This document shows, one piece after another, positions 34,167 to 49,940 of a stretch of DNA of 49,940 bases (positions are counted from its first letter, which is position 1; every line of letters starts with the position of its first letter). The DNA comes from Stramenopiles sp. TOSAG23-6. Taxonomy: Eukaryota; Sar. The notes under the pieces are model-generated. The model saw only the letters and a program-made list of their open reading frames with translations. It was not told the DNA's origin and did not search any database. The translations under genes were made by a program, and so were the position numbers. The stretch lies in contig LT635920.1 of assembly GCA_900128565.1 (NCBI GenBank), positions 5,001 through 54,940 of the forward strand. Reading direction: 5' to 3'.

Positions 34167-35716
34167 ATGCTCTCAACACGTTTGAATATTCGCCGCGTTG
34201 TTCTTCGGGGAATATCAAGTCGATCTGTATCAACTCAATCTGTACCAATAAAAAAAAGTACTGATAGTCACCGCGAGACATATCGTTATGAATTTTATAA
34301 CGGAGAAAAGGTCAAGTCAACCTTTTCGAACAAAGAGATGGACCGGAGAACAACCAACCTTCGAGAAACGATGTCGAAGATGAATTTAGAAACATGTTTG
34401 ATGACTTCAATGCATAATATTGCTTACTTTAGTGATTTTGTGTATTGTAGTTTTGGCCGGCATTATGGTCTTGTTGTTGGTCACGAAGGTCCTGTCAAAA
34501 CAATTAGCGCTGGAATCGATGCTGGCCAACCTTGGAGACGAACAGCAAACGGCGGAGAAAATGTGACTTATACGGATTGGCAGCGTGATAACTATTTCAA
34601 GGTAGCTGTTGAAGAGCTTATTAGATCTTCTTTGTCGAATCATGGGTGTTTTCGCGTTGGAGTTGAGTATGTATGTTTTATTTTTTTCAATTTCGAATTT
34701 ATTTTTTTATAGGAAATTTTGTACCTAACAAATTTTTTAAAGATTTCTTTTGAAATATTTTACCAAAATAAATGACCACTTGACTCTGGATATGTTTTCA
34801 AAATTAAGAAGTGCTCTACCTGACTCAGTTGAACTGGTTGATATAAGTAAAGATATTATGAAGAGTCGCATGGTAAAATCTGCTGAAGAAATCGAACTTA
34901 TTCGCTTAGGTGCTTGGGTTGCTGATCAGGGTGGAGAATCAGCAGTGAAGGCAATATCTGATGGTATTGGAGAATACGAAGTTGCATTAGCATCAACACA
35001 GAGAATGGTAACTGAAATTGCTAAGCATGCTCCTGGAAATGCTGAATTGATGGATACATGGACATGGTTTCAAAGTGGTATAAATACTGATGGTGCACAC
35101 AACCCCGTGACTACACGAAAACTGAACTGTGGAGATATTCTTTCTCTGAATTGTTTTCCGATGATTGGAGGATACTACACTGCTTTGGAGAGGACTTTAT
35201 TTCTAGGTGAACCTGATAAAGTATCATTAAAAATGTGGGAGGCTAATGTTGCTGTACATGAATTGGGTAATAAGTTAATCAAACCAGGAGTAAAATGTAG
35301 TGATATTGCAGAAGAACTTAATGTACGTTTTCAAAATTGAATTTCAAATTTATTTATTTTTTCGTACGAAATTTTGTACTTAACGATTTTTTTGACTAAA
35401 TTGTTTTTTCTTCACAATACATGAACTCTGTGAATCTTTGGATGTTTTACAATATCGTACTTTTGGTTATGGTCATAGTTTTGGCGTATTAAGTCATTAT
35501 TATGGTAGAGAAGCTGGTTTGGAATTACGTGAAGATGTCAATACTGTACTTGAACCTGGAATGGTCGTTTCAATGGAGCCAATGATTACAATTCCAGATG
35601 GTTTGCCTGGTGCTGGTGGATATAGAGAACATGATATTCATGTAATTACAAAAGATGGAGCTGTAAATATTACTGGTTTTCCCTACGGACCAGAACAAAA
35701 TATTATTCACGCATAA
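34167..35716 (+). CDS. Creatinase-type M24 metalloenzyme-fold hydrolase (3 exons)
   Basis: The exons are 34167-34670, 34774-35322 and 35423-35716, all phase 0, giving 448 residues. The protein aligns along its whole length with bacterial creatinase (creatine amidinohydrolase, creatine to sarcosine plus urea). Signature stretches are CSFGRHYGLVV, TDWQRDNYF, WTWFQSGINTDGAHNPVTTR (catalytic-type His277), ALERTLFL (Glu307), YRTFGYGHSFGVLSHYYGRE and VVSMEPM (Glu403). Creatinases use the M24 pita-bread fold without needing metal. The N-terminal ~45 residues (MLSTRLNIRRVVLRGISSRS) look like a mitochondrial presequence absent from bacterial enzymes. The two junctions predicted by homology (VEY|DHL and ELN|ELC) match introns that do not end in AG. 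Bacterial origin by transfer is likely but needs a tree. Confidence 0.85.
34671..34773 (+). repeat. Introner-like intron 1 of the creatinase gene
   Basis: 103 bp, GTATGTTTTATTTTTTTC at the 5' end and ...ACCAAAATAAAT at the 3' end, with the family core AATTTTGTACCTAAC. Borders are set by homology (GAG TAT | GAC CAC). A conventional alternative (donor 4 bp earlier, acceptor TTTAAAG at 34742) is also in frame but would insert ten residues, FLLKYFTKIN. Confidence 0.75.
35323..35422 (+). repeat. Introner-like intron 2 of the creatinase gene, without any AG
   Basis: 100 bp, from GTACGTTTTC to CACAATACAT, with the core CGTACGAAATTTTGTACTTA. No AG dinucleotide occurs anywhere in it, so a GT-AG intron is impossible here. 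Because an AT sits at both borders, it can equally be read as GT-AT, TG-CA or AT-AC. Confidence 0.85.
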
Positions 35717-35920: not shown

Positions 35921-37642
35921 ATGATATTCCGCTCAAATTTCTTGCCTAGGGCAAATACCGGATATATGTTCCGTCGAATGTGTACCACGACTTCAAAACG
36001 GAAAAAGACCTTTCATTTTTTTGCTGCTGGAGCTGCAGTTTCTGGTGGTTATTATTTTATTAGAGATTACTTTTCTCACCTATCCGCTAATAATGTACAT
36101 TTGTCGTCTTCTATTGATACAAGTGAAGCAATATTAGATGCATCTTCTTTTTCAGATGAATTAGTTTCGGTAACATTTGAAGCTGCAAAGGATCATGCGG
36201 TGTATATAGATGACGTAGAAAAAGAGTTTACTGATTCAGGAAAAGAAACATGCCAAGTAGTATTAGACAAAGTCGACCTTGTTCAACTTATATCTGAGCG
36301 TATTTTTTATTTATTACAATCAAAACAGCAATGTTACATTACTCCATAATACCACTATTTATTCATCATCATCAAAAATGGCGTATTGTTCACATTAAAT
36401 GGCATATCAAATTAGAAAATTTACGTATCCAATTGAAGTCTTTAGCAAAAGAATCAATTGAAAAAGGAACCTCATCTATTTTTGATACTGCTAGGTCTGA
36501 AAGAGTTCCGATATTCTCATCATGGTATTTCTCATATCCAACTACATATACCCTGATGTCGGAAGCTATATCAGCTGCATTTGCCCATCAAATTCCATGG
36601 CGTCGAAAGTCCGCCAATTGTACATTTTCATCATTCATTTCAAATTTATGTTTCATACCAAAGTTTGTACCTAACGAATATTTTGACTGAAAAAAAATAT
36701 TTTTTACAATATTCGGGATGCAACTACAAAATCAGCAGTATCTAGTCGAATTCAAGAGGTTATTCTTGCAAAATATGAAGCAATAGTGCTACGACCTGAG
36801 GTAAATGATACTAAATTTCAAACTGTTTTTTCTTCTTCAGCAAATGAATTACATGTAAACTTTTTGAGTGGTTTAGATACTGTTGAAGATGATTTTCGTT
36901 GTAAATTAAGTTCAAATAATACTTTTATAGATAGTTACTATAGTTCTTCTTCTTCAAAGGAAGATGATAACAATAGATCTAATAAACCCAATAAACCTAA
37001 TACACCTAATACACCTAATAAACCTAGTAAACGTCGAAGGAAAGGAAAACGGGGTAAAGTTCGATTGAAATTGGATTGGAGAGCTCAAATGAGAAAAATC
37101 CGTCATGTACCTCACACGATTGGACGACTTCCAGCAGAGGCATCTATTGGCTTAGCTTTTGGTGGCGCTGTCGCTGGTAAAGTTGCTGGAGGTGCTATTG
37201 CTAAGACTGCCACGACAACATTTTCTAGTAAATTGACAGCACCATTTGTAGGTAAGGCGATGAGTTCTGTTGCTGGTACATCAGGGGCAGCTGTAGGGGC
37301 TTTAGGTGGTATATTTTTTTTATAACATATATATGTATTTTTAAAGATTATTTGAGTTCACAGATAATTTGCTAAGTTTATAATTTTTATATATATATTG
37401 CAAATAATACATGTCCTGGTGGAGCAGTTGCAGGGGCAACACTTGGGATAGGTGTTGATGCTGTTTTGAATGTCATGCATAGAATGATTCATCAAGATGA
37501 CTTTGTTGCTGAGGTTAGAGATGTCCTTTGTGCCAGTGAAGAACATTTTAATAATTTACTAATATCAGAGTTAAATCGTGCTATTGACGTCTGGATTGAT
37601 ACTTCTATTGATGCCATATCACTTGTTGAAACTGAAAAATAA
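35921..37642 (+). CDS. Gly/Ala-rich probable membrane protein (multi-exon)
   Basis: Likely exons are 35921-~36300, ~36305-36619, 36715-37308 and 37413-37642. The start MIFRSNFLPR followed by an Arg/Lys-rich stretch and FAAGAAVSGGYYFIRDYF looks like an organelle-targeting sequence plus a short membrane segment. The C-terminal part is a long Gly/Ala zipper (LAFGGAVAGKVAGGAIAKTA, VGALGGPGGAVAGATLGIGV), then a helical tail ending SLVETEK. Such Gly-zipper segments are typical of membrane-embedded hairpins, some of bacterial type. Frames of exons 1 and 2 do not join directly, so either a very short intron (29 bp, GTATTTTT...AAACAG) or a missing T near 36305 is needed. No named family is recognised. 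Confidence 0.5.
36620..36714 (+). repeat. Introner-like intron in the Gly/Ala-rich gene
   Basis: 95 bp, starting GTACATTTTCATC and carrying a diverged core (AAGTTTGTACCTAACG). The only end that keeps the downstream frame near the family end is ...ACAATATTC|GGGATG. No usable in-frame AG follows the core. Confidence 0.6.
37309..37412 (+). other. Intron with ATACAT-type end, core absent
   Basis: 104 bp from GTATATTTTTTTTATAAC to GCAAATAATACAT. Using this end restores the frame across GGT G|GT CCT. It lacks the GTACYTAA core, so it may be a decayed or different element. A conventional end at GCTAAG (about 37377) also stays in frame and would add an AT-rich peptide. Confidence 0.5.
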
Positions 37643-39274: not shown

Positions 39275-40610
39275 TTACAATTGCTGTTGTCGTTTTTGAT
39301 AAGAATAATAAGCAGGTCTAATAGGAGCTTGGATTACTTCAAGAGGAGCATATTCATTACAACTGTTTTTTTCCTGTCCTTGTTTAGATTTCGTGTCTTT
39401 TTTCATATTTTCCTGTGAAGAACAAATATCCATTGTTTCACGACATGTACGCATGAGTGTATCAGCAGCAACTGTTGCATTTTCTCCCATTTTCATACTC
39501 AAATCATAAGACATATGTATTTTGTAAAAATATTTCAAAAAAAAAATCTGAAAAAAATTGTTAGGTACAAAATTTACTATGAAAAAAAAAATATAGATAA
39601 AAAATTGAAAAAAAATAAAAAACATACATCCGCATCAAAACCAGATAAATCTCCACAAGCAACAAATGGGGTAATAATTCGTTGCATTGACGATTCTTTT
39701 TCTAAATTTTTATAACTATGATCTAAAAGAGGATTTAACATTGTTGGAATGTAACCAATCGGAGGATTATAGCGACGACATACAACAAAAGCTTCAATAG
39801 AAGAATTACGGCTACCTATTTTGTGAAAAAATATTTCAAAAAAAAAATCGTTTTTCTTTAAGTACAAAATTTCGTACGAAAAAAACTAAATTCGAAATTG
39901 GAAAAAAAATAAAACATACTTTTTGGTTTACAACAAATTACCTCTTCGAAATATACTTTAAGCTGAGAATATAAAAGACAAACATCTTTACCTCGAAATA
40001 TTTTTGCTACAAAAGTACCACCGGGTCGTAAAAGATTGGTAGTAATATTTAACGCAGCCAAAAGAAGTTGTGCCTGAACATATTCATCAAGGTCATGCAA
40101 ACCTGTCACATCAGGTGCTCCATCACATATCACAAGATCCGCTTTTTCCCCTTTAAATTGAGAAATTATATTTGTAGCAGTTTCATGAGATGTTATATCA
40201 CCTTGCATATGTACAACACCTTCTATTGGAGTCATTTCCTGTAAGTCTACAGCAACAATACGCGCAGCGCCATTTTTATCAAATTTTCGTGTATTTTTAC
40301 AAATTGGAGAAACACTATCCCCAGGAGTTTTACAAATTGGAGAAACACTATCCCCAGGAGACGTTTCACTAGGACTCTTTTTATCATTAGTTTTTTCTAT
40401 TGATTGTTGGAGTGTCTTTAGAATACGCCTACTACAAACTTGACTCCAACTACCGGGTGCTGCACATAAGTCAACTACTCGTTCCACACCCGTAAAAATA
40501 TCAAGTTGTTCATCAATTTGTAGTAGTTTAAAAGCTGATCTAGCTCGAAAACCAACCTCCTTGGCTTTGCGATAATATATGTCGCGTTTATCTTTGGACG
40601 TGCGACCCAT
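39275..40610 (-). CDS. TRM7: TRM7/FTSJ1-type tRNA 2'-O-ribose methyltransferase (3 exons)
   Basis: The exons are 40610-39920, 39815-39628 and 39514-39275, giving 372 residues. RrmJ/FtsJ enzymes methylate ribose 2'-OH. The TRM7 branch modifies positions 32 and 34 of tRNA anticodon loops in the cytoplasm. The start [20 protein letters not shown] and [12 protein letters not shown] (SAM site) are typical. The catalytic K-D-K-E tetrad is Lys28, Asp163, Lys203 and Glu238, with Glu238 supplied by exon 2 ([12 protein letters not shown]), confirming the first junction. [13 protein letters not shown] runs into exon 3 MSYDLSM. An 11-residue tandem duplication (GDSVSPICK twice, ~86-105) sits in a loop. 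Divergent from the DHX16 helicase gene. Confidence 0.92.
39515..39627 (-). repeat. Introner-like intron 2 of TRM7
   Basis: 113 bp. On the coding strand it runs from GTATGTTTTTTATTTTTTTT to TTTTTACAAAATACAT, with core AATTTTGTACCTAACAA. Homology favours FDAD|MSYDL. A TTTCAG acceptor upstream (39550) would also be in frame and add eleven residues ([11 protein letters not shown]), strikingly like the extra peptide possible for creatinase intron 1. Confidence 0.75.
39816..39919 (-). repeat. Introner-like intron 1 of TRM7, ending in AG
   Basis: 104 bp, from GTATGTTTTATTTTTTTTCC to TTTTTTCACAAAATAG, with core CGTACGAAATTTTGTACTTA. Here the end is a conventional AATAG|GT, showing that the family can also provide a normal acceptor. 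Confidence 0.85.
40327..40362 (-). repeat. Tandem 33-bp in-frame duplication in TRM7
   Basis: The sequence ttttacaaattggagaaaca followed by ctatccccaggag occurs twice in a row at about 40294-40360, duplicating 11 residues (around GDSVSPICK) in a surface loop between the SAM site and the catalytic Asp. Confidence 0.8.
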
Positions 40611-47896: not shown

Positions 47897-49184
47897 ATGT
47901 CTGGAAATAAAACAAACTCTACAACAAAATCAACATCTTTTCGTCCTATAGCATCGAGTGTTTCTAAATCATCTCCAGAAAAATATTTTGCAGGATTTAG
48001 TGGTCAATGTCGTAATGTGAAAAATACTATTGTCACAACTCCATTTCTAACATCGACAGCATGTAAAAAAATAATAACAATGTGTGAAGAATTTGCAATT
48101 TCAAAAAGTGGTTGGTCTAGAGATCACTCTTCCATATATACACAATCTACTACTGATCTAGAAGTTGTATCAATTCCTTCACTTCGTAAATGGTTTTTAA
48201 AAACTGATTTTATGAATGAATTACAATCTTTTTATGACGAAGCATGTACGTTTTATTTTTTTTCAATTTGAATTTTTTTTTCGTACGAAATTTTGTACCT
48301 AACAAATTTTAGTTTTTTTTTTTGAATTATTTTCCAAAATACATATGGAGAACAAATTTATTTTATGGATGATTTTTTTGTAGTAAAATACTCAACAGAA
48401 ATTGGTGGACAGCGTTCCTTACCCATTCACAAAGACGCTGGAAATATTAGCTTTATGATAGCATTAAGTGATCGTTCCGAATATAGTGGAGGTACGTTAT
48501 TGTTTCAACCCTAACCCTAACCCTAATTTTTTCAACAATATTTTTTGTATCAAAGAGTTATTTCTAATTTCTAATTATTTTTCAACACATTTTTTTTTTC
48601 GTACAGGCGGTACATATTTTGAAAGTACAGATAAAATATTACATCTTGAGCAAGGAGAATTAGTATCTTTTGGAGCTAATTTGATGCATCGTGGGGAAAA
48701 TATTGAAAACGGTACCAGGTATCTTTTAGTAGGATTTTGTCATACAAAAAAAGATTATACACCAATGTCAGGAGATATAGATCCATCAAAATTACAAGTA
48801 GTTCCGGGAAATAGACTTTCTCTTCCTAGTTGTGCTTTTAAAGCATCTGAAGTGTTAGCAAAAGCAAATCAGAGTAAGAATAAAAATGTACACATTGAAC
48901 AAAATATCAAACATATAAATCCTATACTCGATCATGAAAATGAAACCGATGAAACATTTAGTTTTCATACACCAAATATGAAATGCTTCTTAGGTGAACA
49001 TCCAGGAGTATATAGCTCAAAATGTCTTAGCAATGTGTATAAAGAACAAAAACGATTACGAAAGCGACACCAAGCAATAATAAGTAATAAAAGGGCGCGT
49101 TTATCGCCTAGAATTGATGTCGACGAACGGTATCAAAAGAAGAAAAAAAGGAAAAAATCACACAAAAGACATTTTCAAAAATAA
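47897..49184 (+). CDS. 2-oxoglutarate/Fe(II) dioxygenase, prolyl-4-hydroxylase-like (3 exons)
   Basis: The exons are 47897-48245, 48345-48491 and 48607-49184, giving 357 residues. P4H-type enzymes use 2-oxoglutarate, O2 and Fe(II) to hydroxylate proline or related side chains. The double-stranded beta-helix core carries His145-x-Asp147 (LPIHKDAG) and distal His193 (LMHRG) as iron ligands, and Arg203 (GTRYLLVGF) as 2-oxoglutarate anchor. Both junctions fall inside the core (DEA-Y-GEQIYF and SG-G-GTYFE), so the splice positions are well fixed. The C-terminal ~130 residues are a basic, low-complexity tail ending in Lys/Arg-rich sequence, perhaps a nuclear signal. No signal peptide. Substrate unknown. 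Confidence 0.85.
48246..48344 (+). repeat. Introner-like intron 1 of the dioxygenase gene
   Basis: 99 bp, from GTACGTTTTATTTTTTTTC to TTTTCCAAAATACAT, with core CGTACGAAATTTTGTACCTA. Frame and homology require GCA T|AT GGA GAA. The only AG in its second half (TTTTAG, about 48312) shifts the frame and soon hits a stop. Confidence 0.85.
48492..48606 (+). other. Conventional GT-AG intron with telomere-like repeats
   Basis: 115 bp, GTACGTTATTG to TTTTTCGTACAG. It contains three tandem CCCTAA units (48511-48528). The 3' end TTTCGTACAG partly recalls the introner core, so it may be a rearranged relative. Confidence 0.8.
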
Positions 49185-49887: not shown

Positions 49888-49940
49888 GTATGTTTTATTT
49901 TTTTTCAAATTCCAATTTTTTTTCGTACGAAATTTTGTAC
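49888..49940 (+). repeat. Introner-like intron (5' half) at the right edge
   Basis: It begins GTATGTTTTATTTTTTTTC and ends at the window edge inside the core TCGTACGAAATTTTGTAC. The host exon ends in AT, as in most family members. Confidence 0.85.

Follow-up and report, generated by a model that had tools for sequence, protein, structure and literature searches.

We analysed a stretch of 49,940 nucleotides (nt) of DNA from Stramenopiles sp. TOSAG23-6, an uncultured marine protist (contig LT635920.1, positions 5,001 to 54,940; 'the window' throughout), in which a creatinase/M24 peptidase gene is interrupted by a segment without any AG dinucleotide. An earlier note on this DNA had treated the segment as a lone odd intron; it is one copy among a large introner family, six more copies of which lie in the window. 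The explanation we prefer, with a probability of roughly 0.78, is that these are U2-type spliceosomal introners whose non-AG acceptor derives from a 2-bp target duplication. At the level of DNA and protein, the copies form a family that lies in its genes in sense orientation, has frame-exact borders and a 2-bp duplication, prefers the register starting with GT and leaves conserved junctions when removed.

An AG-less segment in a creatinase gene

The gene, its two introner copies and the proposed signals of the second copy are listed here.

34167..35716, + strand: creatinase/M24 peptidase gene with three exons (Pfam Creatinase_N and Peptidase_M24 on the exon frames; homologues)
34671..34773, + strand: introner copy forming intron 1 of the creatinase gene, GT...AT, joins VEY|DHLTL
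35321..35322, + strand: left copy of the 2-bp target duplication, exon AT (sequence; duplication test on the family)
35323..35422, + strand: introner copy forming intron 2 of the creatinase gene, GT...AT, no AG
35323..35328, + strand: putative 5' splice site GTACGT (donor counts in 98 in-frame copies)
35376..35384, + strand: branch-like block GTACTTAAC (family form GTACCTAAC), a conserved internal block of the family alignment with a presumed branch role
35421..35422, + strand: right copy of the duplication, 3' end AT, proposed acceptor CAT

Segment 35323-35422 is 100 nt long, starts with GT, ends with AT and has an AG count of 0. Base composition would predict ∼2.6 AG dinucleotides, with a probability of ∼0.07 for none, and 31 of the 98 family copies that join in frame (see below) likewise have no AG; the absence of AG alone is therefore a weak sign and nothing special. 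Excision of the segment brings GAA CTT AAT onto GAA CTC TGT (ELN|ELCES), a join that is gapless in relatives when compared by eye (for example against P0004, CCDIALELNKIYEGYGLLQYRTFGYGHSFG versus CSDIAEELNELCESLDVLQYRTFGYGHSFG). Because ATG is common to both ends, GT-AT, TG-CA and AT-AC describe an identical cut on the DNA. The earlier interpretation of the segment is thus partly supported: it had correctly described a stretch free of AG, whose exact removal restores the creatinase frame and whose borders can be written in these three ways.

The joined creatinase protein has relatives with ∼60–67% identity over 84–94% of its length. A published model, P0003 (a EukProt entry whose label, GSMAST32, hints at a MAST stramenopile; 96% identical to the creatinase over 66% of the query), breaks at both introns. 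At intron 2 it ends in ...ELNVRFQN, which is a reading into 35323-35422 as far as a stop.

Size and shape of the family

Many similar copies were found at separate places, as introns in coding genes, as expected of introners. The pattern ATGTACGTTTT had 456 matches in the 8.03-Mb genome, compared with 21 for the reversed pattern, and the two main 3'-end motifs, TTTTTCACAATAC and TTTTTCCAAAATAC (each with trailing free bases), had 356 and 468 exact matches, with 0 for their reversed controls; these whole-genome counts include mirrored duplicates. A family profile run over 250 kb, made up of the window and 20 stretches of 10 kb each, returned 83 matches with 72 distinct cores. Extrapolating from the 46 distinct cores in 200 kb (the window and the initial 30 kb of each of contigs C1-C5, mirrors included), the genome-wide copy number would very roughly be ∼2,000. 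A scan of viral contigs with a 22-base core gave 0 matches. Mirrored duplicates were seen on contigs C2 (L012-L014), C4 (L018-L020) and C37 (L042/L043), and would fit chimeras from whole-genome amplification of single cells.

The majority sequence of the 98 in-frame copies is GTACGTTTT...CGTACGAAATTTTGTACCTAACAAATTTT...TTTTTTCACAATAC-AT, with a median length of 100 nt (range 84-144). Their donor is GT in 92 cases, as for U2-type introns, with GTATGT in 37 and GTACGT in 35. Copies L011 272-, L027 9520-, L063 and L077 have a GA or GC donor, and the frame is still kept on their removal. A CTAAC-type branch-like block is present in 85 of the 98, at a median of 41 nt from the end (range 27-81), and the copies end in ...AATAC followed by a dinucleotide, mostly AT but also TT, GT and AG. 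One copy, L010 7588+, begins right behind a sequence resembling the end of another copy (TTTTCACAATATAT|GTATG), as though one introner had landed on the 3' border of the other.

Removal of the copies restores conserved reading frames

For the 54 copies whose flanks were long enough, we excised everything from GTAYG through AATAC and the two following bases, and scored a join as open when it could be read through 120 + 120 nt. At the |GTAYG...AATAC-NN| register, 43 of the 54 joined in frame. Shifts of 1 or 2 nt left only 7-8/54 open, and shifts of 3 left 39-44/54, as required; with the element retained, 6/54 were open, and with the flanks joined antisense, 5/54. A further 60 short loci showed the same pattern. 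Once the sets were merged, 98 of 111 copies joined in frame, and only these 98 were used for the tests of the ends below. The flanks themselves were open in the element's sense in 51/54 (left) and 50/54 (right) cases, compared with 21/54 and 24/54 in antisense.

This sense bias bears on the idea that the copies are excised from DNA, as ciliate internal eliminated sequences are, or that the genes are simply non-expressed. Such a process would be compatible with the short inverted ends and the 2-bp duplication, and no RNA was seen. However, DNA excision would not require flanks that are coding in the element's sense so far above antisense, the frames and conserved residues are intact on either side of the copies, and the copies retain a directional donor, a branch block and a U tract. 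With the sense bias and the conserved junctions against it, we consider this idea very improbable.

Fourteen non-AG junctions were gapless when compared with homologues; a fifteenth, in one Trm7 copy, ends in AG. They comprise both creatinase junctions (by eye), the second, non-AG junction of Trm7, which like the first is gapless, two in ClpB and one each in threonyl-tRNA synthetase (ThrRS) and DENN. CHD is gapless at LADE|MGLGKT and at HEE|STWESE, the latter a divergent GT...ACAT intron overlooked by the family profile. Further gapless junctions lie in a CHK2-like kinase (GT...GT intron), threonine synthase (GT...TT intron), an SLC38-like transporter (weak match) and Myb (judged from the profile span). 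The last is in the C-terminal extension of ATP synthase beta, compared by eye with P0121 (86% identical over that region); its right end was mis-called by the script and set by eye. For this extension (L025 around 7474), the protein database search returned matches to just two proteins.

Of the trinucleotides with at least 10 matches in an acceptor scan, CAT came first, with 52 in frame vs 20 and 22 out of frame, although the scan was noisy; CAG in the same scan gave 30 vs 15 and 20. When donors and acceptors were scanned together, GTA[CT]GT with ACAT had a modest frame excess (12 vs 4 and 6), and no frame excess was found for [CT]AG acceptors (for example GTAAGT: 2, 2, 2).

The 3' ends and a 2-bp duplication

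An AG acceptor of the U2 type is not what most copies have: creatinase intron 2 ends in AT, and when the first 100 listed ends were counted for the TTTTTCACAATAC and TTTTTCCAAAATAC types, AG made up 4 and 3, respectively. For the former, the other ends were AT 67, TT 13, GT 12, AA 3 and GC 1; for the latter, AT 86, TT 3, AC 3, GT 2, CT 1, AA 1 and GG 1. Position -2 of the intron equalled position -2 of the exon in 78/98 copies (51.2 expected), and position -1 did so in 83/98 (73.4 expected), values reached in 0 of 5000 permutations in both cases. Over the same 98 copies no excess was present at -3 (35 vs 35.0) or -4 (31 vs 34.1), and position +1 gave 55 matches vs 52.3 expected (reached in 148/5000 permutations). 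Insertion thus creates a 2-bp duplicate, mostly NT, and the intron consists of the element plus one of the two copies.

Among the AG-ending copies (L064, L065, L066, L067 and 39816-39919 in the window), the exons end in GG, AA, CG and AA, and once in AT. Since these exon ends are mostly not NT, the AG of such copies may have evolved in places where the duplicated dinucleotide made a poor acceptor.

The register favours GT...NT over AT-AC

Where the duplicates are equal, the register is invisible, because all registers then yield one mRNA. In the 34 copies with unequal duplicates, all three registers were open in 27, none in 6 and only two in 1. Conserved residues allowed the register to be judged in four copies; some of the others encode one and the same residue whichever register is used. 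In L028 5481- (TATC|GT...ACAT|GCG), the R encoded in the GT register aligns with R of SLC38A9 (weak match); the one-base shift gives C and the AT-AC register a stop. The AG-ending Trm7 copy reads PKSSRNSS in the GT register, comparable to the PRSSR found in the two solved Trm7 chains closest to it, and PKGSRNSS with both shifts. For ClpB (L081), the GT register gives V, as in the chains shown, and the AT-AC register I; for DENN (L082), these are R, as in DENND1A and 1B, and H. The ClpB and DENN copies cannot tell the GT register from a one-base shift. Taken together, the residues at these four copies favour GT...NT and speak against AT-AC.

U12-type donors read ATATCCTT or GTATCCTT, and the U12 branch site is located ∼10–20 nt from the 3' end. 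Were the copies U12-type AT-AC introns, the minor spliceosome would cut before AT and after ...TAC, a notation that the AT duplicated at both ends permits, and a CTAAC-like block is indeed present. The family donor is GTAYGTTTT, however, and even when read from the duplicate, the 5' end ATGTAYGTTTT differs from ATATCCTT. The branch block is too far from the end (median 41 nt, n = 85), and copies with a TT or GT duplicate would begin with TT or GT. Given in addition the stop, I, H and the G in place of S in Trm7 that the AT-AC register produces, we find U12-type introns highly unlikely. The earlier note had rightly found the 5' end unlike U12; its view of AT-AC as the most conventional reading is not borne out at the unequal duplicates, where the conserved residues favour GT...AT.

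Splicing machinery and proposed mechanism

Canonical GT-AG introns are present in the same genome, for example in the genes for an FKBP (L016 2397) and an FAD-binding protein (L026 2977-), and so are Prp8 domain IV and Slu7. In the Prp8 gene (L089 around 1490-1510), two abutting matches to Prp8 domain IV lie in different frames, with an N-containing stretch where they join; because of the several N at the meeting point, this break is probably an assembly fault. Nine U2AF-like matches were all below the cut-off, and 2 of the 14 control bacteria matched too. U2, U6, U12 and Prp18 had no match in the genome, which is uninformative since all 14 control genomes were equally silent, and a 5S search had no match, although 11 of the 14 controls did.

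The fixed GTAYGT donor, the GTACCTAAC block, the U-rich tract and the AG-ending sister copies point to the major spliceosome. We consider it rather unlikely that the copies are removed without a spliceosome, as proposed for the nonconventional introns of euglenids and diplonemids, whose ends would pair before a machine of unspecified nature cuts. The non-AG ends and the direct repeat at the border are compatible with such a removal, as are the copies' ends, which are inverted over a short stretch only (GTAY...RTAC) and pair somewhat more than shuffles do (1.48 vs 0.73 pairs, up to 60 copies). RNAalifold, however, gave no common structure on the gap-rich alignment, and the standard donor, the conserved branch-like block and the AG-ending sister copies are not accounted for. 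Euglenozoan nonconventional introns have strong end pairing and no conserved border, whereas here the donor is conserved and the pairing weak.

Under the mechanism with U2-type introners, a short non-autonomous DNA element resembling a miniature inverted-repeat transposable element (MITE) would insert into a coding exon and thereby duplicate 2 bp of the target (AT in creatinase intron 2). The element would supply three signals: GTAYGT as the 5' splice site, a branch region of the CTAAC type and a U-rich tract. The 3' splice site would be the second of the two duplicate dinucleotides, which follows ...UAC. The major (U2-type) spliceosome would then cut the introner from the transcript and restore the exon exactly. 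Because the 3' site would be the duplicated dinucleotide, the acceptor would mostly be CAU, also CUU or CGU, and not YAG. We infer from the sequences that RNA is spliced at these borders by a spliceosome with relaxed 3'-site choice, which suggests an unusually permissive splicing machine. A wider version, which we hold only tentatively and rate at somewhat less than even odds, is that the AG rule has been dropped for the whole mobile intron class: the acceptor would be whatever was duplicated (AT, TT, GT, rarely AA/AC), the site would be set by its position behind ...UUUUUCAMAAUAC, and some copies would have moved to AG.

Several observations weigh against U2-type introners with duplicated acceptors. 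All evidence comes from DNA and protein comparison, and no transcript was seen. Eleven of the 54 copies fail to join in frame, at least one of them (ATP synthase beta) through a mis-called end, and in 6 of the 98 in-frame copies the donor was called as something other than GT (GA 2, GC 2, AT 2). At the SLC38-like junction, the PCAT1 residue is not R. Moreover, 32 copies have an AG between the branch block and the end, and in 14 of these the 60 + 60-nt frame stays open using that AG. This would be expected if an AG inside or near the element were truly used and the exact AT border were only apparent, as would the different junction that published P0003 has at creatinase intron 1. That junction, however, is forced at the price of losing the conserved SNHGCFRVGVEY and gaining FLLKYFTKIN, creatinase intron 2 offers no AG at all, and the fourteen junctions neither gain nor lose anything relative to homologues, so a hidden AG has little chance of being the explanation. 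A count of the first AG downstream (56/88) was uninformative, as the test stretch was too short.

Other copies in the window

36620..36714, + strand: introner copy lying in the next gene, its right border fixed only to within a few nt
37309..37412, + strand: divergent GT...ACAT intron in the same gene as the 36620 copy, joins ALG|GPGGAVAG (from the frame join; missed by the family profile)
39515..39627, - strand: introner copy ending in ACAT, in the same Trm7/FtsJ gene as 39816..39919
39816..39919, - strand: AG-ending introner copy in the Trm7/FtsJ gene
48246..48344, + strand: introner copy ending in ACAT
49888..49940, + strand: introner copy cut off by the window end

Relation to known systems

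Introners, splice sites from target duplication and AG-less acceptors are each already known. In yeast that lacks Prp18, CAU and UAU serve as 3' sites, and those HAU sites that are used have stronger poly(U) tracts (PMC10711555), so that CAU-acceptor chemistry is possible. There, these are alternative sites in a mutant, whereas here CAT seems to be the principal site in a large family of introns. In Fritillaria species, 34% and 44% of introns have 3'AT, and U2AF is duplicated in F. borealis (PMC13326754). The last three bases of fritillariid introns are YAY, like CAT here, and a U2-type spliceosome is thought to act on them; their major non-canonical classes are AG/AC and AG/AT, in contrast to the GT donor and target-duplicate acceptor here.

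Introners from DNA transposons (Gozashti et al. 2022, PMC9860276) likewise have near-identical copies in unrelated genes, target duplication, splice sites partly from the duplication and exact exon restoration, but GC and GA donors and GY/AG core sites are discussed for them, whereas the acceptor here is mostly AT, TT or GT. Those of Amoebophrya (Farhat et al. 2021, PMC7789003), also a marine protist, are similarly non-canonical with direct repeats across the borders. They have direct repeats of 3-5 nt, inverted repeats of 8-20 nt and two variable ends, compared with 2 bp, ∼4 bp and a fixed GTAYGT donor here. The nonconventional introns of diplonemids (PMC12621601) share non-AG ends and a discussed MITE origin, but differ in their strong end pairing and unconserved borders, in contrast to the conserved donor and little structure here.

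Within the literature searched (main texts, in part), we did not come across a likely stramenopile in which a canonical donor is combined with a duplicated AT/TT/GT acceptor. The main text of PMC5778133 contains 'intron' twice (gene prediction, read mapping) and no 'splic', that of PMC12614181 neither term, and PMC8163842 only one 'splic', in a reference.

AG-less introners may explain broken gene models such as P0003, with exon sequence lost at intron 1 and a stop inside intron 2. If RNA bears this out, the family would reveal the extent to which 3'-site choice can be relaxed in a spliceosome that continues to process GT-AG introns, and how a transposon can turn into an intron although it brings no acceptor of its own. 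It would then stand beside prp18-deleted yeast and Fritillaria as their natural counterpart.
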